A stretch of 25,294 nt of DNA. Source: a virus. The notes under the pieces are model-generated. The model searched no databases, was not told the DNA's origin, and worked only from the letters and a program-made list of their open reading frames with translations. The position numbers and the translations under genes were made by a program. Shown piece by piece: positions 9,433 to 24,934 of the stretch (positions are counted from its first letter, which is position 1; the number at the start of each line of letters is the position of its first letter). The DNA is taken from IMG/VR virus record IMGVR_UViG_3300024520_002795, positions 1 through 25,294 of that record; one strand, written 5' to 3'.

Positions 9433-9884
9433 GCGCTCTAACAACAACCGGGGTAATCACAAGGACCGAGCTGGCCCTTTCTGATCTGTCGATCACTCCT
9501 GCCGGTGGGTATTACATCCAGCGCGATGGGTTTGGTCCCGGCCAGATTGAATGGCGTCGAAGCGAGGCTGAGTCCCCATACGTCGCTGGTAGTACCCTTA
9601 CTCATGCCGTGAAGGGTCAGGAAACATCCACACTCAAGATTCGTGTTGAGGATGTTACTGAAGCTGGCATGTATTCCCGCATGGGGACGTTAGCAACTGC
9701 CTTCGAACAGTTCAGCTACACGATGACCATCACTATTGGTGGGCAGGCATTCGCATACGAGTGCGACTGTTCTGATTATAGTGTTGGCGACGGTGGCAAC
9801 GTGCAGGATCTGTGGGTCAGATCGTTCACGCAGATGATGGTCTTCCAAATCCCACACAAGCCAATCGATGGTGGGTTCCTCTAA
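9429..9884 (+). CDS. Minor tail / distal tail-tip protein
   Basis: A 151-aa protein whose ATG overlaps the tape-measure stop (ATGA), so it is translated with it. It contains YYIQRDGFGPGQIEWRRSEAE, SPYVAGSTLTHAV, then KIRVEDVTEAG and a beta-rich C-terminal part with DLWVRSFTQMMVFQIPHKP. The YVAGS...L opening after tape measure recalls actinophage minor tail/distal tail proteins, but it is shorter than a full Dit. It is the only tail-tip gene before the strand change; the rest of the tip may lie left of the window. It converges with the DUF932 gene, with a 4-nt overlap of the two stops. Confidence 0.55.
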   Translation: MSALTTTGVITRTELALSDLSITPAGGYYIQRDGFGPGQIEWRRSEAESPYVAGSTLTHAVKGQETSTLKIRVEDVTEAGMYSRMGTLATAFEQFSYTMTITIGGQAFAYECDCSDYSVGDGGNVQDLWVRSFTQMMVFQIPHKPIDGGFL

Positions 9885-10885
9885 GGCAGAGAAAGCACCG
9901 AGGCAGCAGCTCGCTCCTTGGTTTTCTGAATCCAAGATCCGGGAGTCATGGTTGCTCTCGTGCGGTCACTCTCTGAGCTATTGCGCTTGTGATCGAGGTA
10001 CTCGACGATGGAGTTATACATTGTCCATCCGTTAGCACCGAAGTTCTGTGAGTTGAGGTCGCTGGCGAAGAGGCCGCGAACCTGTGCGTGAGTTGCTTGG
10101 GTGTTGGCCTTTTGCCTGTCAGTGGGGTTAGTGGGCTCGGGGAACACACTCTTGAGAATCCGTTGGAAGCGATCCTCCGAGTAACTAACGGCCAGAAGCT
10201 CCTCTGACTGCTCCTTGAAGCTGTCAGCCCAAGCCGTAGATACCCCTAGGACGCTCTGTGCGTGCGTTAGGCGGTTTTCAACGGAAGAGGTGTGCTTGGC
10301 ACGGAATACACTCTTAGCACCTTGTAGGGCGAAGTTTAGGGTGTTCCGACAGACTACTCGTGTTGCGGAGAACAGGTAGGTCATTGCGATACTACCGTCA
10401 TGCGACCACCAGATGACTAGGCCGCGCTCAACCTTGTCATTAATACCCACAGGGTCAACAACAAGATCCTCTAAACGAAGATAAGAAAAAAGCTGTCCGC
10501 CATTCCCGAGGACGCCCATTGTGTCGAGATATGCCTCACCTTTAGAGGCTCCGACGATATCGTAGGCAACTTCAAGGGCTTGGGTGTTCTGGACCACAGC
10601 GTAGGTATCGCCTACAACTCCGAGGGCTACCTGTCTCTGACGACCTTCTCCGAGGTCGTATGTAGCGACGGTAGCCTTTTTGCTCTCGATTTCGATGGGG
10701 GTTCCACCGCTACCTTGAGCATGGATGGGCTCCTTGGTAACTATGAAGTCTGCGTTGGCGGCAACAAGTGCCTGAGGTATGGTCATATTGCCGTCTACGG
10801 GAGTGCCTAGTCGATGCCATGGGTCTTGGTATGAGTTGTATGCAAAGCTGGCCTTGCCGTCGAGTTCTTGGATGTCGTGAGCCAT
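9881..10885 (-). CDS. DUF932 family phage/plasmid-like protein
   Basis: The start is placed at 10885 because AGGAGA sits 6 nt upstream there, giving 334 aa beginning MAHDIQELDGKASFAYNSYQ; a longer open frame exists upstream but has no such signal. The family pattern is clear: PWHRLGTPV near residue 20, then YAVVQNTQALEVAYDIVG, then GGQLFSYLRL, and WWSHDGSIAMTYLFSATRVVCRNTL. DUF932 (TIGR03299-type) proteins are widespread in phages and plasmids; I know of no settled activity. It is the only leftward gene in the first 19.7 kb, sits between tail and lysis genes, and has its own promoter and operator. This suggests separate, perhaps early, timing. Confidence 0.85.
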   Translation of the reverse strand: MAHDIQELDGKASFAYNSYQDPWHRLGTPVDGNMTIPQALVAANADFIVTKEPIHAQGSGGTPIEIESKKATVATYDLGEGRQRQVALGVVGDTYAVVQNTQALEVAYDIVGASKGEAYLDTMGVLGNGGQLFSYLRLEDLVVDPVGINDKVERGLVIWWSHDGSIAMTYLFSATRVVCRNTLNFALQGAKSVFRAKHTSSVENRLTHAQSVLGVSTAWADSFKEQSEELLAVSYSEDRFQRILKSVFPEPTNPTDRQKANTQATHAQVRGLFASDLNSQNFGANGWTMYNSIVEYLDHKRNSSESDRTRATMTPGSWIQKTKERAAASVLSLP

Positions 10886-10916
10886 GTTCTTCTCCTGTTT
10901 ATCTTGGACTACCCAC

Positions 10917-10925
10917 ACTATATCA
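10917..10925 (-). promoter_or_regulatory. Extended -10 promoter for the DUF932 gene
   Basis: On the minus strand: TGA then TATAGT (10922-10917). The transcript would start near 10910 and carry a ~25-nt leader containing AGGAGA. Its -35 position falls inside the palindrome at 10932-10952. Confidence 0.55.
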
Positions 10926-10931
10926 AATAAA

Positions 10932-10952
10932 TCTACGGTTAAGGTCCGTAGA
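10932..10952. promoter_or_regulatory. Palindromic operator between divergent promoters
   Basis: TCTACGG, 7-nt spacer, CCGTAGA. It lies 9 nt from each of the two divergent -10 elements, so it covers both -35 regions symmetrically. A dimeric regulator bound here could control both directions; the regulator is not identified. Confidence 0.6.
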
Positions 10953-10958
10953 CCGCAG

Positions 10959-10967
10959 TGGTATGAT
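10959..10967 (+). promoter_or_regulatory. Extended -10 promoter, leaderless start of gene at 10974
   Basis: TGG then TATGAT (10962-10967), 6 nt, then ATG at 10974. No ribosome site is present, and the predicted transcript begins at the start codon. Confidence 0.6.
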
Positions 10968-10973
10968 GCCCGT

Positions 10974-11303
10974 ATGGGATTTTCGTGGGCCAAAGAATCA
11001 GAACCAGAACCAGAATCGGAACCAGCACCAGAACCAACTGACCCTATCCTGTATTGCGGTGTGGAGAAGCTTGTTGCTGCCAATGGGGAGGAAATCCTCT
11101 TCGACAAGGCCCGCGTTGTCCATAGTATCGACGGTACCGTCATCCGAGGGTACGTTGTAGACGCTTCGACAGGCTCAACGACCCAAGCCCAGAGGATGGT
11201 CCCCAAGAGCGCCATCTCTCGTCATGTAGCTATGGGGTGGCGTAATAGCGATAAAACCCTCCATGAAATGGTGGGGGAAACCCCCTTCTCTCTTACTCGT
11301 TAA
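10974..11303 (+). CDS. Hypothetical protein with Glu-Pro repeat N-terminus
   Basis: A 109-aa protein. The ATG at 10974 was chosen over an earlier in-frame ATG (10884) because the promoter lies between them and positions 10974 as a leaderless start. Residues ~8-23 are a Glu/Pro/Ser repeat (ESEPEPESEPAPEPTDP) encoded by near-perfect GAACCA hexamers. It is followed by a small beta-rich region (EEILFDKARVVHSIDGTVIRGYVVD) and a helix with MVPKSAISRHVAMGWR. I recognise no family. The acidic-proline arm looks like a flexible linker. The stop overlaps the next start (TAATG). Confidence 0.6.
   Translation: MGFSWAKESEPEPESEPAPEPTDPILYCGVEKLVAANGEEILFDKARVVHSIDGTVIRGYVVDASTGSTTQAQRMVPKSAISRHVAMGWRNSDKTLHEMVGETPFSLTR
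10996..11037 (+). repeat. Imperfect GAACCA hexamer repeat
   Basis: Tandem, slightly degenerate GAACCA/GAATCA units inside the gene at 10974, encoding an Glu-Pro/Glu-Ser stretch. A possible site of in-frame length variation. Confidence 0.6.
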
Positions 11304-11985: not shown

Positions 11986-12651
11986 ATGGCTAAACATAAC
12001 ATTGTTAAAGATTTAGAGTCTCTTGCCTATCCGATCGAGAAGCTAGAGACTCTCCCCGGAAATCCGCGTCAAGGTAATGTCCAGTCTGTAGCGAATTCGC
12101 TTGAAAAGTTCGGTCAGCGCAAGCCGATCGTTGCACGCAAAAAGCCCGACAGCGACATCGGTGTCGTTCTGGCAGGCAATACTACTCTCAAGGGTGCCCG
12201 TAAGCTGGACTGGGAAAAGATTGCTGTCACTTGGGTAGAGGACGACGACAAGACGGCAGCAGCGTTCGCTATAGCTGACAACCGTACACACGATCTTGGT
12301 CAGTACGACGAACAGAAGGTGGTCGATATGATCGCCCAGTTCGACGACGACGACACGCTGTTGGAAGCATCCGGTTATGACCTTATGGATGTAGAAGAGA
12401 TGACGCAAAGTCTAGAGGACTTCGACGGGGATATTGACCTCTCAGAGTTCGAAGAATCGGACGGCATGCCCGACGAACAGCCTGACCGTCCACCATCTCG
12501 TCCGGTGGTCCAGTACGCCCTCGTGTTTGACGACGAGGATCAACAGCAGCGCTGGTATTCGTTTGTCCGATGGTTGAAGCGCACTTTTCCGGATTCCGAT
12601 ACCGTAGCGGGAAGGATAGATGAGTACCTTCAAGACGCTATGGACGACTGA
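11986..12651 (+). CDS. ParB-like nuclease-domain protein 1
   Basis: A 221-aa protein with the ParB/Spo0J N-terminal fold: PIEKLETLPGNPRQGNVQSV (residues ~17-36), then LEKFGQRKPIVARKK, then VVLAGNTTLKGARKLDW (the 'GN/GH' nucleotide-binding motif), then AFAIADNRTHDLGQYDEQK. The 'AIADNRT..LG..D' block is typical of phage ParB-domain proteins linked to DNA modification genes. The acidic middle (DFDGDIDLSEFEES) is followed by a C-terminal domain with YALVFDDEDQQQRWYSFVRWLKR. It lacks a fused methyltransferase domain. Known ParB folds bind DNA, CTP or act as nucleases; which applies here is unclear. It stands just before the six-gene enzymatic operon, in the same direction. Confidence 0.75.
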   Translation: MAKHNIVKDLESLAYPIEKLETLPGNPRQGNVQSVANSLEKFGQRKPIVARKKPDSDIGVVLAGNTTLKGARKLDWEKIAVTWVEDDDKTAAAFAIADNRTHDLGQYDEQKVVDMIAQFDDDDTLLEASGYDLMDVEEMTQSLEDFDGDIDLSEFEESDGMPDEQPDRPPSRPVVQYALVFDDEDQQQRWYSFVRWLKRTFPDSDTVAGRIDEYLQDAMDD

Positions 12652-12692
12652 TTAACGGATTATCCAGAACCAGCTACCATAAAGGAAGGATG

Positions 12693-13337
12693 ATGAGCAC
12701 ATCAAGGGAATTGTTGACGACTAGTCTTGAGCAGGCAGCGCATGACTACGAGACTCTAGGTATCTGCCTAGTCGCTGATGGCGCACCACTTGAACTAATG
12801 CAAGAGTGGGAGAACACCTTGAGGTATGGTTGTAACAAGTTTATTCGCAACGACGCTATGGGATCTATGGAAGAGGCAGGAGACTACCTCATACTTGACG
12901 GTCCCAACACGAGGGCAACCTTGAAGGGTGTCGGTGAAATCTATACGAAGTTCAGGGACTGGAGTTCGCTCATCATCCGAGAACAGGCGATGTACAGCCC
13001 CTACCCGTTATCCGAAATGAACGCCAAAGTTTACCCCGATACTTGGGGCAAGCAGGGACTTCATTACGACTCTCAGCCATTCACCTGCCTCCTGTATGTA
13101 AATGAGGGGGCACCTACCCAGATTAAGCTTCTCACCGGAGAATGGGTTGACATAGACCCGATCCCCGGTGCTGTAGCTTTCTTCCACGGCAGGGAAATGG
13201 AACACCGCGTTCTAACCGGAACTCCCGGCAGTTTTAGAGTAACAGTCCCGTTCAACTATTACCTAGAAGATGATTACGAACGCCCCTCATGGATTGACGA
13301 AGCCATCTACATGAATAAGGACTACGTTAGTGCCTAG
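12693..13337 (+). CDS. Fe(II)/2-oxoglutarate-dependent oxygenase-like protein
   Basis: About 214 aa. Two adjacent ATGs (12690, 12693) follow AAAGGAAGG; the second has the better spacing. The double-stranded beta-helix signature of 2-oxoglutarate oxygenases is present: H-x-D in GLHYDSQPFTCLLYVN (H124, D126), the distal metal histidine in REMEHRVLTG (H171), and the 2-oxoglutarate-binding arginine in GSFRVTVPFNYY (R182). The order and spacing are right for a complete active site. The substrate cannot be read from sequence. Phage relatives of this superfamily oxidise DNA bases or proteins, but this one may act on a small molecule. It heads the operon and overlaps the next gene by 8 nt. Confidence 0.75.
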   Translation: MSTSRELLTTSLEQAAHDYETLGICLVADGAPLELMQEWENTLRYGCNKFIRNDAMGSMEEAGDYLILDGPNTRATLKGVGEIYTKFRDWSSLIIREQAMYSPYPLSEMNAKVYPDTWGKQGLHYDSQPFTCLLYVNEGAPTQIKLLTGEWVDIDPIPGAVAFFHGREMEHRVLTGTPGSFRVTVPFNYYLEDDYERPSWIDEAIYMNKDYVSA

Positions 13338-14436
13338 AGCTAGATGGTATCAAGATTACAATGTAGTGACGGCAGGGCGTGAACGCGTCCGCCACATTGA
13401 TGACCTGTTTGATCATATGGTTGTGCAGTTTAGCGGGGGGAAGGACAGCCTCGCAACTTTGCTTCTGGTTAAGGAGATGTACGAAGAACGTGGCTACGGC
13501 AAGGTTCCAGTTGTATTCAGGCACGAGGAAGTAATTAACCCTTCCGTCCTCGAATTCATGGAAACCTTTCGGCATTACGATTGGCTGGATCTGCATTGGA
13601 TGTGCATTTCGCAGAAAAACTCCAAGTTCGTTTTAGGTCGCAAGGAAACCTACACCGAGTGGGACACATCCGGCGAACGTGAATGGGTTACACAGCCCCC
13701 AGAGTGGGCGATTATGGGAAGCGAGCTAGGGATAGAGGACGCCAACGTCCTAGATCAGAACTCGCTGGACGACTACATCGCAGACTACCTATTCTCGAGT
13801 GGCAAGGTGGCCTTCGTGACCGGAGTGCGCGCATCTGAATCCCTTGTGCGTTTCCGTTCTGTGACACAGAAGCTCAACGAGAACTACATTTCATCCATCG
13901 AACATAACGCCAGATCGCGAGTGAAGCTTTGTAAGCCAATCTACGATTGGTCTCAGGATGACGTGTTTAAATTTATGATCGAATCAGGCGAACAGTACTG
14001 CCCTCTGTATGATGCTCAGGAATTGGCTGGTATGGGGTTGAGGGTTTCGACTGCTCTCCATGTGGTGGCTTCTAAGAAGCTTGATAAGCTAGCTGTCGTG
14101 GAGCCCGAGTTTTTCCAGACCATCGTGAACGTGTTCCCAGAAATGCAGGATCAAGAACGCTATTGGGGGCAGTTCGATCAGGATGCCATTATTCGCCCGT
14201 ACAAAGGGAAAGGGTGGAACGGGGTGATGCGTTACATCAAAGAGAACGTACCCGAGTCAAACCAGCGCCTCGCATACGAACGAGTAAAGTTGTGGAGAGG
14301 TCGTCACGAAAACGCCCCAGAGGATTACCCAATCGACCTACTGTTGAGAACCATAGCCTTCGGCACAATCAAACAGCGCATGGCCGGGGTATATGTCAAC
14401 AGCAAGGACTACAGCGGAGGCAAGGAAAATGAGTAA
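13330..14436 (+). CDS. PAPS-reductase-family PP-loop ATP pyrophosphatase (IbrA-like)
   Basis: A 368-aa protein starting at GTG 13330, overlapping the oxygenase gene by 8 nt. The PP-loop SGGKDS is at residues 35-40 (VVQFSGGKDSLATLLL). Further family features are VVFRHEEVINPSVLEFME, then FVTGVRASESLVRFRS and PIYDWSQDDVFKFM. Enzymes of this superfamily use ATP to adenylate a substrate, often for sulfur chemistry (PAPS reductase, DndC, tRNA thiolases). The C-terminal ~150 residues with WNGVMRYIKENVPE and VKLWRGRHEN recall the DUF3440/IbrA branch, and the next gene is ParB-like as in the ibrA-ibrB pair of E. coli. No four-cysteine Fe-S cluster motif is evident. The exact reaction is unknown. Confidence 0.8.
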   Translation: MPRARWYQDYNVVTAGRERVRHIDDLFDHMVVQFSGGKDSLATLLLVKEMYEERGYGKVPVVFRHEEVINPSVLEFMETFRHYDWLDLHWMCISQKNSKFVLGRKETYTEWDTSGEREWVTQPPEWAIMGSELGIEDANVLDQNSLDDYIADYLFSSGKVAFVTGVRASESLVRFRSVTQKLNENYISSIEHNARSRVKLCKPIYDWSQDDVFKFMIESGEQYCPLYDAQELAGMGLRVSTALHVVASKKLDKLAVVEPEFFQTIVNVFPEMQDQERYWGQFDQDAIIRPYKGKGWNGVMRYIKENVPESNQRLAYERVKLWRGRHENAPEDYPIDLLLRTIAFGTIKQRMAGVYVNSKDYSGGKENE

Positions 14437-15028
14437 CGAACCAGTAGACAACGTGGTCTGGATACCAGCGCGAGAGTTGAAGCCTAACGGCTACAACCCG
14501 AATACCGTTTTCAACACCGAGCTTACCCTACTGGAAGAGAGCATCTTGCGTGACGGTTGGGTTCAGCCCATCATCATCAATGGGAACAAAATCATCATCG
14601 ACGGATTCCACCGTTGGTCATTGTCTTGCATCAGCGACAAGTTGGCATCGAAGTATGCCGAAGAAATCCCTTGTGTTGTATTAGACATTCCCGATGATGA
14701 GGCCATGATGATGACAGTCCGCATGAACCGTGCCAAAGGCAAGCATGCGGCCATTAAGATGGCAGAGATCGTTCAGATTCTTGTGGACGACTACGGACGC
14801 ACTCCAGAGGATCTCGTTGAAGGCATGGGAATGACCCTCAGCGAAATCGAACTACTCTATGATGGTACCCTATTGAAGCACGTCAACTGGCAGAACAAAG
14901 AGTACTCCAAAGCGTGGGTTCCAATCGAGACTCGCTTCTACACCCACGAACAGCTAGTAAACATGGGAGTGGAGAGCGAAGAGGATTCAGACTTCGAACG
15001 AGAAAGTGATGACGATGGCAACACTTGA
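14429..15028 (+). CDS. ParB-like protein 2 (IbrB-like)
   Basis: A 199-aa protein. The start is set at ATG 14429, with GGAGG 8 nt upstream and an 8-nt overlap with the PP-loop gene; an upstream in-frame ATG (14393) has no ribosome site. The ParB fold is clear: WIPARELKPNGYNPN, then LEESILRDGWVQPIIING, then IIIDGFHRWSLSC (the 'DGfHR' nucleotide-binding motif), then VVLDIPDDEAMMMTVRMNRA. A helical domain with YGRTPEDLVEGMGMTLSEIE follows and the tail is very acidic. Adjacency to a PAPS-reductase-family gene mirrors ibrA/ibrB. It differs strongly from the ParB-like protein at 11986 and is probably not a recent duplicate. Confidence 0.8.
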   Translation: MSNEPVDNVVWIPARELKPNGYNPNTVFNTELTLLEESILRDGWVQPIIINGNKIIIDGFHRWSLSCISDKLASKYAEEIPCVVLDIPDDEAMMMTVRMNRAKGKHAAIKMAEIVQILVDDYGRTPEDLVEGMGMTLSEIELLYDGTLLKHVNWQNKEYSKAWVPIETRFYTHEQLVNMGVESEEDSDFERESDDDGNT

Positions 15029-15980
15029 TGACTTCGAGATCTGGTCGAAACACCTCTACCAATTCACCCGTGGCGTACCGCACGATGACTACATGTCAGA
15101 TACGGCATGCTTGTCTGCTGAAGATATTAACTCCAAGGGGGCTGGATGGCTTAACGACAAATCCCTGCTCCGCAAGCGCCTTCCCTCCGAATGGCTAATC
15201 CCCGAATATGGGCGTTTAGAGGGCGGCAAGATCGTGGAATATGCGGAAGCCGACTTGGATGTAGGCACAGCAATCTTTGAAACCGATGTGGTCCTGAAGG
15301 ACGTCGGGGCCTCTAGTGGTAAAAACATTTGGTTTCTTAGCGCAGGGATGGAAGAGAGGGAAAGGGAGCACATACTCAACCAAGCCGTAACACGGTCACA
15401 CATCAGCAAAATACAGGTTTGTGATTGGGCGAAACAGCACTCGTACGCTGAGAAGATCTGGCCCAACGGTTCCAACACTCTCCGTTTCCTAGTATTTAGT
15501 CCTGAAGGCGAGTACCCCCAGATAGCGGCAGCGGTTCAGAAGTGGGCGACACTCCACAGCGGACGCTGCGACAACTGGAACCAAGGTGGGCTGACCACAA
15601 CCGTCATCAACGGAGTGATGGGAGACACAATGGAGGACTTCACCGATCGCTCTCAGCGTGGAGGTAACGGTTCGGGGCGGAACCCCACGCGACCTTTACG
15701 CCCCACGAGATACGTTTCGCACCCGGAGCACGGATCGGAGATCATGGGTGTTAAGATACCGTTTTGGCAGGAAGCTGAAAGAATGGTACTTGAAGCATCG
15801 AACATATTGAGGGAAGAACTTCCATACATTGGTTGGGACGTCATCATAACCGAGGATGGCCCCAAAATCATTGAAGGCAACCCTTGGCCCGGTATCCAGT
15901 TGATGCAAGTCCACTTTCCTCTACTCGCCAACGTCAGGTTTAGAGATTTCTTGGAGTCACATCAAGTGAAAGGTCTGTAA
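15009..15980 (+). CDS. ATP-grasp ligase (sugar-transfer-associated type)
   Basis: About 323 aa. GTG 15006, ATG 15009 and ATG 15015 are all possible starts, all overlapping the ParB-like gene. The ATP-grasp core is visible: DVVLKDVGASSGKNIWFLS near residue 100 (the Lys and Gly-rich loop that hold ATP), then NTLRFLVFSPEG, then a C-terminal block KIPFWQEAERMVLEASNIL, YIGWDVIITEDGPKIIEGN (acidic Mg2+ ligands and EGN) and PGIQLMQ. The last block closely follows the ATPgrasp_ST family pattern. ATP-grasp enzymes join a carboxylate to an amine or thiol through an acyl-phosphate. The substrate is unknown, and its place in the operon implies action with the oxygenase, PP-loop enzyme and methyltransferase. 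Confidence 0.75.
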   Translation: MTMATLDDFEIWSKHLYQFTRGVPHDDYMSDTACLSAEDINSKGAGWLNDKSLLRKRLPSEWLIPEYGRLEGGKIVEYAEADLDVGTAIFETDVVLKDVGASSGKNIWFLSAGMEEREREHILNQAVTRSHISKIQVCDWAKQHSYAEKIWPNGSNTLRFLVFSPEGEYPQIAAAVQKWATLHSGRCDNWNQGGLTTTVINGVMGDTMEDFTDRSQRGGNGSGRNPTRPLRPTRYVSHPEHGSEIMGVKIPFWQEAERMVLEASNILREELPYIGWDVIITEDGPKIIEGNPWPGIQLMQVHFPLLANVRFRDFLESHQVKGL

Positions 15981-16561
15981 TGGGGACAAGGTACAACGCT
16001 GAAGCCTACCTTAAAGCATGGAGCGAGGAGGGCAAGTTCCCCAAAATTCACGACCCCGTTTTTAACCTGTTCATGACCACCTTCGAATCCGAATCGGTGC
16101 TCGACTTGTGCTGCGCCACAGGCATGATGGGGACACGGATTCAAGAGAAAGCCGGAATCAACGTATGCGGAGTGGAGTGGCTAGAAAAAAACATTCTTCG
16201 AGCATCCAAGTTCGGTGTCTCGATTCCAATCCGTGAAATGAAAATCGAGAGAGAAACTCTCCCCGAATTCACCGACTGGATCAAACAGAATAAAGTCACC
16301 GGAATCGTGGCCCGTCGCTGCATCAGCGAACTATTCGGAAACACCCCAAGCAACACGATTGACTGGGAGTGGGCGGACATCTGGTCGAACGCTGTAGCTG
16401 ACGCAGGGGTTAAAGAGTTTTGGGTCGAAGGTAGAGCCGATCAAGGTCGCTCAGTGCACTGCATCCCTGACACCGAAACAGAAGTCAAATGTTTGTCCTT
16501 CAGGTATACTGTGTCCGAGACGCAAGGTAAAACCGCATATCTGACTTTGAAAAATGACTGA
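15980..16561 (+). CDS. SAM-dependent methyltransferase-like protein
   Basis: A 193-aa protein translated by TAATG overlap with the ATP-grasp gene. Motif I of class I methyltransferases is at residues 40-51 (VLDLCCATGMMG), followed by INVCGVEWLEKNILRASKFG, where the E after motif I would bind the ribose of SAM. No (D/N)PPY motif of amino-DNA methyltransferases and no PC motif of C5 enzymes is seen; the motif IV area reads GIVARRCISELFG. So a non-DNA substrate or a degenerate, possibly non-catalytic domain is possible. It overlaps the HNH-like gene by 8 nt. Part of the six-gene operon. Confidence 0.65.
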   Translation: MGTRYNAEAYLKAWSEEGKFPKIHDPVFNLFMTTFESESVLDLCCATGMMGTRIQEKAGINVCGVEWLEKNILRASKFGVSIPIREMKIERETLPEFTDWIKQNKVTGIVARRCISELFGNTPSNTIDWEWADIWSNAVADAGVKEFWVEGRADQGRSVHCIPDTETEVKCLSFRYTVSETQGKTAYLTLKND

Positions 16562-17075
16562 CTACAACGGCTTCACAGGCGCAGAGCGTCACAAAGGTGG
16601 CAACATCCAAACTTGGGCCTACAAAAAAGGCTACTTGAAGCGACCCCTAAATTGTGAGGCGTGCCACGTTTACGGTGACGTCCCCGGTGAAATCGTCGCC
16701 CACCTCGAAGACTACACGGAACCAATCAAAGGCTCCATTTTTCTTTGCTACAGGTGCCACAGGATGGTCCACATTCGCCACCAGTACCCTGAAGCATGGT
16801 ACGACTATCGCAAGAAGGTCGGGGGAGGCTTCCATTGGCCTTTAGCCACTAACAAGCCGGGGCAGGTTGTTCACGACCATTGCGACAACCGTTTGAAAGG
16901 AATTTTTGATGCAGGAGCGGTATCGGGGTATGCGAGAGGTGAAACCGTTTTGGATCGGATCGACGACGGGACGTTACATCCCGGCCCCCGCGAAAAGTGG
17001 GTTGAGAAGATGGCGTTGATCATGGACGGCAAACGCCCATTTTTCATCCCTACAGACCAACTATCCTTCCTATGA
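16554..17075 (+). CDS. HNH-like zinc-binding protein
   Basis: A 173-aa protein. Residues 34-73 form a treble-clef/HNH-like site: C-x2-C (NCEACH), then VAHLEDYTEPI, then LCYRCHRMVHIRH. The order C..C, H-x-x-DY-x-P, C-x2-C-H-x3-H is that of phage HNH proteins, where the usual 'AHHxDY' is here AHLEDY. The loss of the second histidine may reduce or remove nuclease activity. The long C-terminal part (GGGFHWPLATNKPG onward) is unrecognised. It is last in the operon and directly before the terminase gene; in some phages (HK97 gp74) an HNH protein assists packaging. It could therefore serve packaging instead of the upstream enzymes. Confidence 0.6.
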   Translation: MTDYNGFTGAERHKGGNIQTWAYKKGYLKRPLNCEACHVYGDVPGEIVAHLEDYTEPIKGSIFLCYRCHRMVHIRHQYPEAWYDYRKKVGGGFHWPLATNKPGQVVHDHCDNRLKGIFDAGAVSGYARGETVLDRIDDGTLHPGPREKWVEKMALIMDGKRPFFIPTDQLSFL

Positions 17076-17088: not shown

Positions 17089-17142
17089 ATGAATACGTAC
17101 ACCAACCCAACCCAAACACACGGAAAAGAAACCCGTCGATAA
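17089..17142 (+). CDS. Leaderless 17-codon leader ORF coupled to terminase
   Basis: Encodes MNTYTNPTQTHGKETRR. It begins 7 nt after a consensus extended -10 element, and its TAA overlaps the terminase ATG (TAATG). The terminase gene has no convincing ribosome site of its own, so ribosomes finishing this ORF may reinitiate there. No family is recognisable; the peptide is polar and its sequence may not matter. Confidence 0.5.
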   Translation: MNTYTNPTQTHGKETRR

Positions 17143-19712
17143 TGGCAGAAAAAGAACCAGTAGACTGGGAAAAAGTTGTAGAATTCCTAGAACCAAAACC
17201 CTGCCTCTACACCCCCCACGAACCCCATCCGAAACAGAAAGCATTCCTCCGAACAGAAGTCCTAGAATGCTTATTCGGTGGAGCCGCGGGAGGTGGCAAA
17301 GATGTTTGGGTTGGTACTCCAATATTAACTTCAGATGGTTGGTCAACGATGGGTGATCTCCGAGTTGGAGATCTCGTGTTTGGCGAAGATGGTGAACTGG
17401 TTCCGGTGTTGGCTAAATCTGAAGTGATGCAAAATCCTTGCTATGAAATAGAGATGACTGACGGGGAAGTAGTTGTAGCGGGAGAGGGCCATTATTGGAA
17501 CGTGGCAAACGAAAAAGAGCGAGCAAATTACCAACGCACTAATCCATCATGGAAAGCAAAGCGACGCGCTAGCAGGAAAGCCCGTGGGAGGAATGCTTCT
17601 GAACGTGCTCTAGCCACGGGTGGACGCTCAAAGGGGACTGCCGAGGCCACATCCTTAAACAACTCCGTGAGAGCAGCAGAGGTAAGGGAAAACGAAGAAC
17701 GTCCAAGCATTTGGAGTTACACAACCAAGCTTACGACCAAGGAAGTTTTTGAGCTTCAGGAATCTGAACGCAAGCGAGTTACTATCCCGAATGGGGCTAC
17801 CCTCAATAGCGAAGATGGATGGAAGTCCGAGATCCCCCCATACACGTTAGGTGTATGGTTAGGCGACGGGACAACAGAAAGCGGATATATCTGCTGCGCT
17901 GAGAGCGATATGCCCAGCATGATTAGGGAATTAGAGAATGACGGTTGGGAGAACGTTAGGTCAGCTTCATCTTCCATGCCCCGCAAGGAAGGCGGGGAGG
18001 TCGTCCATTTGCTGACGGGTAAGTCGAGTGGTGGGCTATCGCTTCTCCAGTGTCTAAATAAAGAGGGGAAGCTTTATGACAAAAGTGTCCCTGCTTGGGT
18101 TCACAATGCTTCACTGGCGGACAAGGAAGCGTTTGTTTCTGGGTTTTTCGATACCGATGGCTACGTCGACGCTAATCGTGGGCGCATTGAATTCTGTCTA
18201 GCCCGTGAAGATATGGTTCGTGACGTTCATTCGCTTCTGTGGAGTATGGGTCTTTCCCCAACCAGCGTTAAACACAAGAAAACTACCAACCAAGACCCGA
18301 ACTTTGAGGGGGATGCTTGGAGATTTGAACTCTCGCAATGCCCTGCAACGTTGTTCAGGTTGCCTAGAAAGCGCGATCGTCTGGTGGTGAACGTCAAATT
18401 AAAAACCAAGGTCAACCACAACGAGTACCGATCAATCAAGTCCATCAAAGAAGTCCCCACCGTAGACACCCAATGCATTCAAGTCGGGAACACTTCAGGA
18501 CTGTTCAGGATAGGTCGCACACACCTCGTCACACACAACTCAGATGCCCTACTTATGGCTGCCCTGCAGTATTGCGATGTCCCCGGCTACTCAGCCATGA
18601 TCTTCCGTAACACCTTCGCTGACCTCGCTCTTCCCGGTGCCATAATGGACCGTGCCCGAGAGTGGTTAGGCGAATACCCCGAAGTTATATGGTCGAAACA
18701 GTCGAACATGGCTATTTTCCCATCAGGGGCTAGATTGACCTTCGGTTACCTCGACGGCCCTGATGACCACCTTCGTTACAAGGGTGCTGAAGCGCAGTTT
18801 CTAGGCTTCGATGAGATGACTGAAATCCGTGAGCAGCATTACCGATACTTGATCTCTCGTTTGAGGAAGCCAAACGCTGGACCTCTCTCGCGTGTTCCCT
18901 TGAGAGCGCGAGGAGCCACCAACCCTGCACCTAACTGGGTGCGTAGATATTTCGTTGAAGAAGGTATGGAGCAGAAGCGCCTGTATGTTCCATGCAAGTT
19001 TGACGAAAACCCGTTCATCGATCAGAAGTCGTATGCCGAATCCCTAGATCGGCTGTCAGCGGTGGACAGAGCGCGCCTAAAGGGTGGCGACTGGTATGCC
19101 GAGGAAACCGGCAACATGTTTGATCGCGACGACTTCCAGATTATCGCCCCTGAGGATGTCCCTGATTCAGCTTTCTTGAACGTCGTCCGTTACTGGGATT
19201 TGGCTGGTTCTGAGCCCACCGACAGTAACCCTGACCCCGATTACACCGTAGGAGCTAAGGTCGCCATAGTCGATGGCTATATGATCATCCTAGATATCAG
19301 ACGCGTCAGGGTCAACCCTGCTGAGGTGGAGAAGCTAGTGTGGCAGACGGCGCAGGAAGATGGTCCGAACGTGCGTGTGAGGATGGAAAAAGATCCCGGT
19401 CAGGCTGGTAAAGCGCAAATTTCTCATTACGGTCGCAACGTTCTGCTAGGGTTCGACTTTGATGGCAACCCCCCTACAGCCGACAAGGGTTCCCGTGTTG
19501 CCTTGTGGTCAGGTAAAGCTAAGCGTGGAGAGATCGCCCTAGTGCGCGGGGACTGGGTGACAGGGTTCTTAGACGAAGCAATGGCTTTTGATCCGCTCGC
19601 TGGGAAGAAATCTAAGGTCCACGACGATCAAATGGATGCGTGTTCAGGTTCGTTTGAAATTCTTACCGGAATCAAGGGTAAGAGTAAGAATAGAGTGCGA
19701 CTTATCCTCTAA
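17142..19712 (+). CDS. terL: Terminase large subunit, split by an intein
   Basis: An 856-aa precursor; removing the intein leaves a 443-aa terminase, normal for TerL. The N-extein ends in FGGAAGGGK (residues 45-53) and the C-extein begins SDALLMAALQY (467 on), together forming Walker A GGAAGGGKS. Walker B is FLGFDEMTE (D557, E558). The C-terminal nuclease shows an acidic RYWDLAGSEPTD site and HDDQMDACSGSFEIL near the end, as in TIGR01630-type terminases. It packages DNA into the prohead through the portal. Because the intein interrupts the ATP-binding loop, only the spliced protein can work. Translation is probably coupled to the leader ORF by TAATG. The position far downstream of the structural genes is unusual. 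Confidence 0.92.
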   Translation: MAEKEPVDWEKVVEFLEPKPCLYTPHEPHPKQKAFLRTEVLECLFGGAAGGGKDVWVGTPILTSDGWSTMGDLRVGDLVFGEDGELVPVLAKSEVMQNPCYEIEMTDGEVVVAGEGHYWNVANEKERANYQRTNPSWKAKRRASRKARGRNASERALATGGRSKGTAEATSLNNSVRAAEVRENEERPSIWSYTTKLTTKEVFELQESERKRVTIPNGATLNSEDGWKSEIPPYTLGVWLGDGTTESGYICCAESDMPSMIRELENDGWENVRSASSSMPRKEGGEVVHLLTGKSSGGLSLLQCLNKEGKLYDKSVPAWVHNASLADKEAFVSGFFDTDGYVDANRGRIEFCLAREDMVRDVHSLLWSMGLSPTSVKHKKTTNQDPNFEGDAWRFELSQCPATLFRLPRKRDRLVVNVKLKTKVNHNEYRSIKSIKEVPTVDTQCIQVGNTSGLFRIGRTHLVTHNSDALLMAALQYCDVPGYSAMIFRNTFADLALPGAIMDRAREWLGEYPEVIWSKQSNMAIFPSGARLTFGYLDGPDDHLRYKGAEAQFLGFDEMTEIREQHYRYLISRLRKPNAGPLSRVPLRARGATNPAPNWVRRYFVEEGMEQKRLYVPCKFDENPFIDQKSYAESLDRLSAVDRARLKGGDWYAEETGNMFDRDDFQIIAPEDVPDSAFLNVVRYWDLAGSEPTDSNPDPDYTVGAKVAIVDGYMIILDIRRVRVNPAEVEKLVWQTAQEDGPNVRVRMEKDPGQAGKAQISHYGRNVLLGFDFDGNPPTADKGSRVALWSGKAKRGEIALVRGDWVTGFLDEAMAFDPLAGKKSKVHDDQMDACSGSFEILTGIKGKSKNRVRLIL
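17301..18539 (+). mobile_element. Class 3 intein with LAGLIDADG homing endonuclease
   Basis: 413 residues (precursor 54-466). It starts with Asp, not Cys/Ser (K|DVWVGTPILTSDGWSTMG), and ends THLVTHN|S. The W-C-T triplet that defines class 3 inteins is present: Trp119 in block B (GEGHYWNV), Cys445 in block F (VDTQCIQVG), Thr464 before the terminal His-Asn. In this class the block F Cys makes the first nucleophilic attack, so residue 1 need not be a nucleophile. The +1 residue is Ser467. Between the splicing blocks lie two LAGLIDADG-type motifs, LGVWLGDGT near residue 236 and FVSGFFDTDGYVD near 331, indicating an endonuclease that would copy the intein into uninterrupted terL genes. The insertion point is codon-exact inside Walker A. 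Confidence 0.88.
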
Positions 19713-24235: not shown

Positions 24236-24341
24236 CGGATATCGAACACTTGGAGCTTGCATCCAACCACACGCAGTCAAGCAAACAGTCCTATATCTAA
24301 TCTGTCGAAACGTGCCGTAAGGATATCTCTGTGGGGCGAAG

Positions 24342-24357
24342 ATAGTAGTGATACTAT
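24342..24357 (+). promoter_or_regulatory. Extended -10 promoter within an inverted repeat, leaderless GTG start
   Basis: TGA then TACTAT (24352-24357), 7 nt, then GTG at 24365. The -10 hexamer is the right arm of the repeat ATAGTA-GTGA-TACTAT (24342-24357), so a factor recognising the repeat would block RNA polymerase. No ribosome site. The 129-nt interval 24236-24364 holds nothing else I can name. Confidence 0.55.
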
Positions 24358-24364
24358 TCAAAGC

Positions 24365-24934
24365 GTGGATAAGAACGATACAGCCAAACAGCACTTGGGT
24401 AAACTTGTCGCTAAAGCCATCGAGAGCGATGTGGCTCAGCGTGTCATTGAAGCCGTCGAGGCTGAGGTGGGCGAGCCTGTCGATTTTGCGTTCTTGAAGA
24501 TTAACGACGTTCAATTTGATGGGAGCGACCTGTCGATCGACTACGACTACGATCTACCCGCTCCTTTGAAACAGGTGATCGTGGTGCGGAAAGATCTCAA
24601 AATGCGTAAGGGGGAAATGTGCGTTCAAGCATCGCATGCTTCCATAGGTTCGATTGTGAGTACTCGCAGCTTCGACGCAGATAGCCACTCAACCCAAGCA
24701 TACCTTTCCCCCGAGGAAGATCGTTGGCTTGGTGAAGGGATGGCAAAGGTGTGTGTTCGAGTTGGTTCGGAAGACGAGTTAGATGAGATCTACCAGCAGT
24801 CCTTGGACGCCAAGGTCAACGCCTATATGGTCGTAGATGAATACGATGGGGTGCCAACTAAGACTTGCCTTGCGATTGGACCCGATAGGGTCGAAGCGAT
24901 CGACGAGATCACCGACCACCTCAAACTACTTTGA
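24365..24934 (+). CDS. Peptidyl-tRNA hydrolase, type 2 (PTH2 family)
   Basis: 189 aa from GTG 24365, chosen because it lies 7 nt after the extended -10 element; an upstream TTG (24257) would precede the promoter. An acidic N-terminal region of ~65 residues is followed by the PTH2 domain: LKQVIVVRKDLKMRKGEMC (68-86), VQASHASIGSIV (88-99, matching 'AQ.aHA..g' with the catalytic-site Lys just before), VNAYMVVDEYDGVPTKT, and CLAIGPDRVEAIDEITDHL ending KLL. The family frees tRNAs from stalled peptidyl-tRNAs; it is typical of archaea and eukaryotes but also occurs in phages. It sits close to the tRNA-Glu gene, suggesting a translation-support role during infection. Confidence 0.85.
   Translation: MDKNDTAKQHLGKLVAKAIESDVAQRVIEAVEAEVGEPVDFAFLKINDVQFDGSDLSIDYDYDLPAPLKQVIVVRKDLKMRKGEMCVQASHASIGSIVSTRSFDADSHSTQAYLSPEEDRWLGEGMAKVCVRVGSEDELDEIYQQSLDAKVNAYMVVDEYDGVPTKTCLAIGPDRVEAIDEITDHLKLL

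Follow-up and report, generated by a model that had tools for sequence, protein, structure and literature searches.

The 25,294-base virus record IMGVR_UViG_3300024520_002795 (referred to as the window, and probably a fragment) carries a cassette of seven genes at positions 11986–17075 of the plus strand, each a single intact open reading frame (ORF) and together lying immediately 5' of the terminase large subunit (TerL) gene. The analysis showed that the conserved system within this cassette consists of a PP-loop ATP-binding enzyme flanked by two ParB-fold proteins (ParB1 and ParB2) and followed by one exchangeable gene for either a methyltransferase or a GNAT acetyltransferase, with genes for an HNH-type zinc protein and the terminase adjoining; in the window, genes for a 2-oxoglutarate (2OG) oxygenase-like protein and an ATP-grasp ligase are added. 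That these genes form a joint pathway is well supported, and production of a hypermodified nucleic acid would, judging from the sequences, be the best explanation of the cassette. Specifically, they may constitute a modular nucleic-acid modification pathway whose most likely target is the phage's own DNA, once replicated but not yet packaged, a reading to which we give an even chance.

The original prediction described the cassette as a set of unrelated enzymes; it is not a one-off, as its core recurs in diverse phages. Viral contigs were scanned with PP-loop and methyltransferase alignments, every reading frame was then searched with profiles, and loci were grouped at 80% PP-loop identity by single linkage, with the fullest locus representing each group. 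ParB2 was present in all 44 of the resulting groups (44/44) and ParB1 in 40 of them, together with a methyltransferase in 18, a GNAT in 6, an oxygenase in 4 and an ATP-grasp ligase in 1; the methyltransferase frequency is inflated because many loci were sought with the methyltransferase itself, although linkage and exclusivity are not. No locus contained both a methyltransferase and a GNAT. Among 37 loci found with the methyltransferase alone (leaving out two truncated contigs and a twin contig of the window, L001, and including some closely related contigs), 36 had a PP-loop gene nearby, nearly all with ParB1 and ParB2. In annotated genomes, the order ParB, PAPS (phosphoadenosine phosphosulfate) reductase-type PP-loop, ParB and methyltransferase was found in Arthrobacter phage Laroye, and the same order with an acetyltransferase replacing the methyltransferase in Arthrobacter phage Kovu; in the Mycobacterium abscessus prophage prophi79-1 the series begins with two ParB genes, and in Bacillus phage 031MP002 none of the four genes is missing but their arrangement differs slightly. 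Since the same gene order appears in independent phages, the arrangement is more than chance, and the neighborhood analysis proposed with the original prediction thus found that the cassette genes travel together. The ParB-like gene described there as lying just upstream is present, not as a mere neighbor but as part of the core. Single-sequence scans of the viral contigs with the oxygenase and PP-loop protein recovered only the twin contig, alignments being required for more, and a scan of bacterial genomes gave mostly IbrA-type homologs of ~25% identity that told little about the subfamily of the window. No description of the module was found in literature searches, with subscription literature and preprints outside the search; with the ATP-grasp ligase seen in this phage only, the exact six-gene set is unique, whereas its core is not.

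The terminases beside the module belong to varied and unrelated classes (Terminase_3, TerL_ATPase and Terminase_6), indicating that the module moves as a unit. This bears on the possibility that the region is an assortment in which ParB, HNH and terminase serve packaging and the remaining genes are unrelated morons on a shared promoter. HNH and ParB-like genes are indeed common beside terminases, and in one group of loci (around L028–L094) ParB1, the PP-loop gene and ParB2 stand next to head-tail genes without capping enzymes, but such an assortment is improbable given that module content is kept beside unrelated terminase classes and that two kinds of group-transfer enzyme replace each other in one slot. 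The gene families met repeatedly next to loci of the L028 type turned out to be head-tail genes.

The exchange is seen most clearly between Laroye and Kovu, which share 87% identity in the PP-loop protein, 85% in ParB2, 76% in ParB1, 67% in the gene following the slot and 83% in TerL, whereas the Laroye methyltransferase and Kovu GNAT that occupy the slot between ParB2 and the next gene are without similarity. Equal exchanges of methyltransferase for GNAT were found in the locus pairs L019/L020 (71%) and L222/L176 (60%). The GNAT assignments are based on Pfam, and the GNAT proteins of the relatives match acetyltransferase PHROGs 3810 and 1249. A slot swapped between methyl and acyl transfer suggests that the core makes one product bearing a nucleophile, most simply an amine or a hydroxyl. 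A survey of cryoconite phages independently noted a phage region in which DNA methyltransferase genes give way to an acetyltransferase, perhaps of the families seen here (PMC7468147). Two other loci carry related genes in different company. The one orphan cassette methyltransferase follows shortly after an MT-A70 gene and has a gpA-type terminase on its other side, without PP-loop or ParB genes (L183, 1741–3272), and Microbacterium phage Hendrix (L014, 3595–7143) has overlapping genes annotated as glycosyltransferase, methyltransferase and acetyltransferase and one for a PP-loop protein with DUF3440, possibly a related pathway.

The ORFs, gene order and end-to-start overlaps originally reported (8, 8, ~20, 1 and 8 nucleotides, nt) were confirmed by re-checking the reading frames and by the twin contig, which is identical to the window at 10,293/10,294 bases. 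ParB1 (11986–12651) and the oxygenase gene (12690–13337) are separated by 38 nt; the oxygenase and PP-loop (13330–14436) genes overlap by 8 nt, as do the PP-loop and ParB2 genes if ParB2 (14429–15028) starts at 14429, or by 44 nt with the alternative start at 14393. The overlap of ParB2 with the ATP-grasp gene (15006–15980) is 14–23 nt depending on the start, and is followed by overlaps of 1 nt between the ATP-grasp and methyltransferase (15980–16561) genes and 8 nt between the methyltransferase and HNH (16554–17075) genes, after which 66 nt separate HNH from the terminase gene at 17142. The motifs of the PP-loop enzyme, ParB2, methyltransferase, HNH protein, oxygenase and ATP-grasp ligase were all intact, with no degeneracy seen when the active sites were checked as had been proposed. 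The stepwise joint pathway first suggested thus stands in terms of linkage and intact motifs, while the core differs from the six-gene set and the sulfur chemistry is unsupported.

The PP-loop enzyme, with the PAPS-reductase/FAD-synthase fold, matches PF01507 (PAPS_reduct) at 3.7e-13 and PHROG 2302 at 1.4e-87, and its SGGKDS and GxRxxES motifs are invariant in 106 sequences. Its AlphaFold2 model (pLDDT 85) gave as best VIA match the PAPS domain of human FAD synthase (Z 18.2, root mean square deviation 3.2 over 172 residues), followed by sulfate adenylyltransferase (Z 16.6) and PAPS or adenosine phosphosulfate reductases (Z ~14–15.5), with the C-terminal third barely covered by structure matches. 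The CysH-type C-terminal ECGLH motif was not found: there is no ECG in the window protein and one in only 5 of the 106 homologs. The window protein has cysteines at 92, 201 and 224, of which only C224 is near invariant (105/106), falling in a DW..D....YC.LYD motif common to human FAD synthase. A CxxC pair is present in 1 of the 106 homologs, so that a conserved dyad of the DndC type is not seen. PAPS reduction and sulfur transfer were dropped for want of the catalytic Cys motif and the Cys pair, and the name “PAPS reductase” is misleading for this enzyme. The original assignment to the PAPS-reductase family thus remains valid for SGGKDS and fold, but not for sulfur chemistry, the fold being nearest to adenylyltransferases. 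Adenylyl transfer to oxygen would be the most economical chemistry suggested by the model, a shared fold being no proof.

The same features bear on DNA phosphorothioation of the Dnd/Ssp type. DndC models give partial matches to the PP-loop protein (2.9e-8 and 1.2e-9) and DndB is also a ParB-family protein (PMC10853773), but with a single near-invariant Cys placed in a motif common to FAD synthase, no DndA, DndD or DndE homolog among the cassette genes, and a chemistry that has no place for methyl or acyl capping, phosphorothioation is very improbable here. A pathway modifying tRNA or rRNA would be in keeping with the fold shared by TilS and other tRNA-modifying PP-loop enzymes, although these score lower (Z ~11–13), and with the resemblance of the methyltransferase to Bud23, among many others; the ParB-fold partners, the late terminase-adjacent place and the lack of any RNA-binding domain seen in the cassette make this improbable.

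The two ParB-like assignments have good support in PHROGs 723 and 2159. ParB1, a ParB/sulfiredoxin-fold protein, matches PHROG 723 at 2.3e-48 and the Pfam ParB family at 3e-4, and ParB2 matches PHROG 2159 at 1.4e-56 and Pfam at 6.6e-6, just over the cut-off; a ParB2 profile matched ParB and Noc structures at 3e-7, and its motifs were intact across the aligned homologs. Further ParB1 matches are to the N-terminal region of a family annotated as DNA methyltransferase (PHROG 498, 2e-25) and to a PADLOC Type II methyltransferase model that has a ParB-like region. These matches, together with the orphan methyltransferase following MT-A70, point indirectly to DNA as the target, which we would call an even bet, and the place directly before the terminase would suit a late, post-replicative modification. 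NTPs are bound by ParB-fold proteins, which work within DNA-modifying systems or next to them, as for DndB (PMC10853773) and DpdB (PMC12839542); ParB genes also occur in CmoX neighborhoods (PMC12783734), and fusions of ParB with methyltransferases are found in phages (PMC12704722). In Pseudoalteromonas phage XCL1123 (L011, 5589–6519) and Mycobacterium phage Gaia (L013, 7311–8210), ectoine synthase/ParB genes adjoin a PP-loop gene, the Gaia gene having an ectoine synthase-like domain fused to a ParB domain (PF06339, 1.3e-32). These genes may represent another capping or cyclizing variant.

The oxygenase is a recurrent option of the cassette. Its Pfam score (PF03171, 0.0055) is under the cut-off, yet the catalytic HxD...H...R residues reported earlier, here placed at H125xD127, H172 and R183, align in the window protein and are kept across the homologs, with HxE in some. 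A scan with the oxygenase alignment alone found eight contigs, namely the twin, five already seen, L190 and the new L222, all with the oxygenase beside cassette genes; homologs within cassettes thus comprise L176, L190–L194 and L222, in 4 groups, and in L222 the oxygenase occurs together with the GNAT variant. The oxygenase-bearing cassettes of L191–L194 also include, after ParB2 and before the oxygenase, a gene for the nucleotide pyrophosphohydrolase MazG.

The ATP-grasp ligase belongs to a sugar-transfer-associated family (PF14397, ATPgrasp_ST; E value 1.6e-19, score 70.6 bits where the curated cut-off is 31.4), and alignment showed Lys98, Trp277-Asp278 and the GN-P region to be common to cellular relatives, which bears out its initial assignment. 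Phage, viral-contig and alignment scans, cellular relatives included, gave as the only other viral copy that of the 99.99% identical twin; the ligase was therefore dropped as a general part of the module, being seen only in the window phage and its twin. Relatives on plasmids lie partly amid surface-polysaccharide genes, so that the gene looks like a recruited cellular ligase.

Small molecules are frequent substrates of ATP-grasp, methyltransferase, GNAT and 2OG enzymes, and the cassette could accordingly be thought to make or alter a nucleotide-like metabolite such as a counter-defense signal, a cofactor or an antimetabolite. The nearness of the PP-loop fold to FAD synthase and sulfate adenylyltransferase, the surface-polysaccharide loci of the ATP-grasp relatives and the MazG gene of the L191-type cassettes are in line with this proposal, but it is rather unlikely, as two ParB proteins and a packaging-proximal place fit a DNA substrate better and the methyltransferase and oxygenase relatives in viral contigs are almost all in cassette context.

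Another proposal, also unlikely though the least so of the alternatives, is that of an IbrA/IbrB-like regulator, in which the PP-loop and ParB pair alters phage or host transcription and the neighboring enzymes are separate cargo. It draws on the pair order, on weak homology to IbrA (~23–26% identity) and to IbrB-annotated proteins, and on the description of IbrA/B as co-activators of prophage gene expression (PMC4490671). It leaves unexplained the exclusive methyltransferase/GNAT slot and the cassette-bound oxygenase, and the window PP-loop protein is without a DUF3440 match, unlike its Hendrix homolog. A modification that altered transcription would reconcile such a regulator with the modification pathway.

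The methyltransferase occupying the exchangeable slot is a minimal class I SAM (S-adenosylmethionine)-dependent enzyme. Its weak Pfam score (0.012) is offset by a match to PHROG 11826 (8e-30), by conservation and by a confident AlphaFold2 model (pLDDT 93.8) with seven strands and a Rossmann fold with motif I, upholding the methyltransferase-like assignment. Numerous tied class I matches, Bud23 among them, came out of the structure comparison (VIA Z up to 14.8), with no hint of substrate. The invariant residues are D42, G48, ARR 111–113, E117, GR 151–152 and E168. As first noted, the usual motif IV is missing: the segment after strand 4 reads VARRxxxE, with ARR and E invariant and nothing like DPPY/NPPY or PC, and DNA methylation by this enzyme was dropped as a candidate on that ground. 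At a guess, the enzyme would act on a substrate that is acidic or carries a phosphate, for which its invariant VARRxxxE and EGR segments seem suited.

The HNH-like zinc protein, recognized as such from the start, has the pattern CxxC...HLEDY...CxxCHxxxH, in which four Cys, H50, H69 and H73 are invariant in 38 homologs, and a weak match to the endonuclease PHROG 2340 (1e-6). Its gene comes next after the slot in the closest relatives and in most cases separates the decorator slot from the terminase; L005-type loci carry it on the opposite strand. Its company with the terminase and its orientation in these relatives suggest a possible role in packaging instead of in the pathway.

In the modification pathway that we favor, ParB1 and ParB2 would hold or select the target, and the core would spend ATP on adenylylating an oxygen of a base or, alternatively, a small molecule at its acid group, leading to a side chain in which an amine or hydroxyl is free. 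To judge by its fold, the PP-loop enzyme would activate and install this chain. In the window phage, the 2OG oxygenase probably hydroxylates this side chain, as its motif suggests, and the ATP-grasp ligase, as its family suggests, probably adds an amide-linked group before methylation. The common handle would be capped by the slot enzyme with a methyl group (methyltransferase) or, in other phages, an acyl group (GNAT), the likely purpose being evasion of host restriction or other DNA-reading defenses. Adenylyl transfer as the chemistry, an amine or hydroxyl as the handle, the succession of steps and DNA as target are all inferred.

Several points weigh against this interpretation. Mycobacteriophage Heathcliff and Rhizobium phage L338C have the core only, with neither capping enzyme, and a literature search on L338C found nothing; nucleoside data for any cassette carrier were sought and none were found. 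No cassette gene has a DNA-methyltransferase catalytic motif, so that a DNA substrate is not fixed and RNA, a protein or a small molecule may be modified instead; ParB-like and HNH genes, moreover, often lie near terminases for unrelated reasons. Without a second viral example of the ATP-grasp ligase, its role in the pathway rests on tight coupling in one phage. Finally, the role ascribed to IbrA/IbrB is co-activation of prophage gene expression, not modification (PMC4490671).

More tentatively, and with somewhat less than an even chance, the cassette may represent a widespread and undescribed class of DNA hypermodification in phages. Here a core of ParB, PP-loop adenylyltransferase and ParB would create a nucleophilic side chain that receives interchangeable caps (methyl, acyl or, in the window phage, an ATP-grasp-ligated hydroxylated group), and the class would also explain orphan IbrA/IbrB pairs; categorically new chemistry is possible. 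If so, many sequenced phages, laboratory isolates from Mycobacterium, Arthrobacter and Bacillus among them, hold an unrecognized system of base modification in which the exchange of one enzyme gives close relatives different products, predicting a mass shift between named phages. This would assign a chemistry to “PAPS reductase” and “ParB nuclease” genes in >100 phage records, besides enlarging the range of DNA-modifying enzymes and giving the restriction arms race a further layer.

Around the cassette, the window has genes for head-tail connection and for the tail, a tape measure among them, followed by a holin-like gene, the cassette, TerL and a UvrD-type helicase. The terminase (17142–19712, plus strand; PF03237, PF17289), a neighbor outside the pathway, is closest to those of Gordonia and methanogen phages (~40% identity) and carries a Hint/LAGLIDADG intein (PF14528 and a weak PF13403 match) at 17301–18500, directly after Walker A (GGAAGGGK|D...HN|S). 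The first residue of the intein is apparently Asp, rather than Cys or Ser, and may indicate a non-canonical intein class. The twin contig ends at the intein boundary (window ~17299), suggesting that intein-bearing and intein-free alleles exist in one sample. A DUF932 protein (PF06067, 1.6e-43) is encoded near the cassette at 9881–11035 on the minus strand, and this family was found near the cassette in 24 loci, including L188 and many of L021–L094. At 24257–24934 lies a PTH2-type peptidyl-tRNA hydrolase domain (PF01981, 9e-29) with an extra N-terminal region.

With respect to known systems, base side chains in phage thymidine hypermodification and in Mu Mom modification are finished by group-transfer enzymes, Mom having a GNAT fold; the hallmark enzymes of these systems were not found in the cassette, and the GNATs of the relatives fall in PHROGs 3810 and 1249. 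DUF3440 following the PP-loop domain, which we take to be a mark of IbrA, gave no match in the window PP-loop protein at E values up to 1 (PF11922), while being present in Hendrix. PADLOC models of known defense systems matched parts of the cassette only (DndC, and the Type II methyltransferase with its ParB-like region), and assignment to such a system was rejected. Phosphorothioation systems (Dnd, Ssp and BREX type 4) resemble the cassette in combining a PAPS-reductase-family PP-loop protein (DndC) with a ParB-family protein (DndB), but the cassette is without the conserved Cys pair and has capping enzymes instead; a desulfurase, DndA, DndD and DndE were not seen in the cassette or its neighbors within this 25-kb fragment. 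The Dpd system of 7-deazaguanine DNA modification, in which the ParB-like ATPase DpdB serves a base-modifying system (PMC12839542), shares the ParB-like protein but not the transglycosylase DpdA, which was not found in the cassette. In phage S-B43, CmoA/CmoX/CmoY carry out cytosine carboxymethylation and ATP-dependent glycine amidation, with frequent ParB neighbors (PMC12783734). The likeness to the cassette lies in a stepwise logic, an ATP-dependent amide ligase, ParB neighbors and a handle that is then decorated, whereas the ligase of that system is Asn-synthetase-like and that of the cassette is an ATP-grasp enzyme accompanied by an oxygenase. CmoX is marked by an SPPC motif and an Arg for carboxy-SAM (PMC12783734); SPPC is not present in the window methyltransferase sequence, and membership was dropped as there is no CmoA or C5-methyltransferase (SPPC) in the window cassette. 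In IbrA/IbrB as in the cassette, a PP-loop and a ParB gene of phages or prophages stand side by side, and homology is weak (~23–33% identity), the cassette differing in its additional ParB and capping enzymes and in an identity of ~25%; no chemistry for IbrA/IbrB was found in the literature. IbrA/IbrB is thus the nearest named relative of the cassette and CmoA/CmoX/CmoY the nearest understood system by logic, each of them matched in part.

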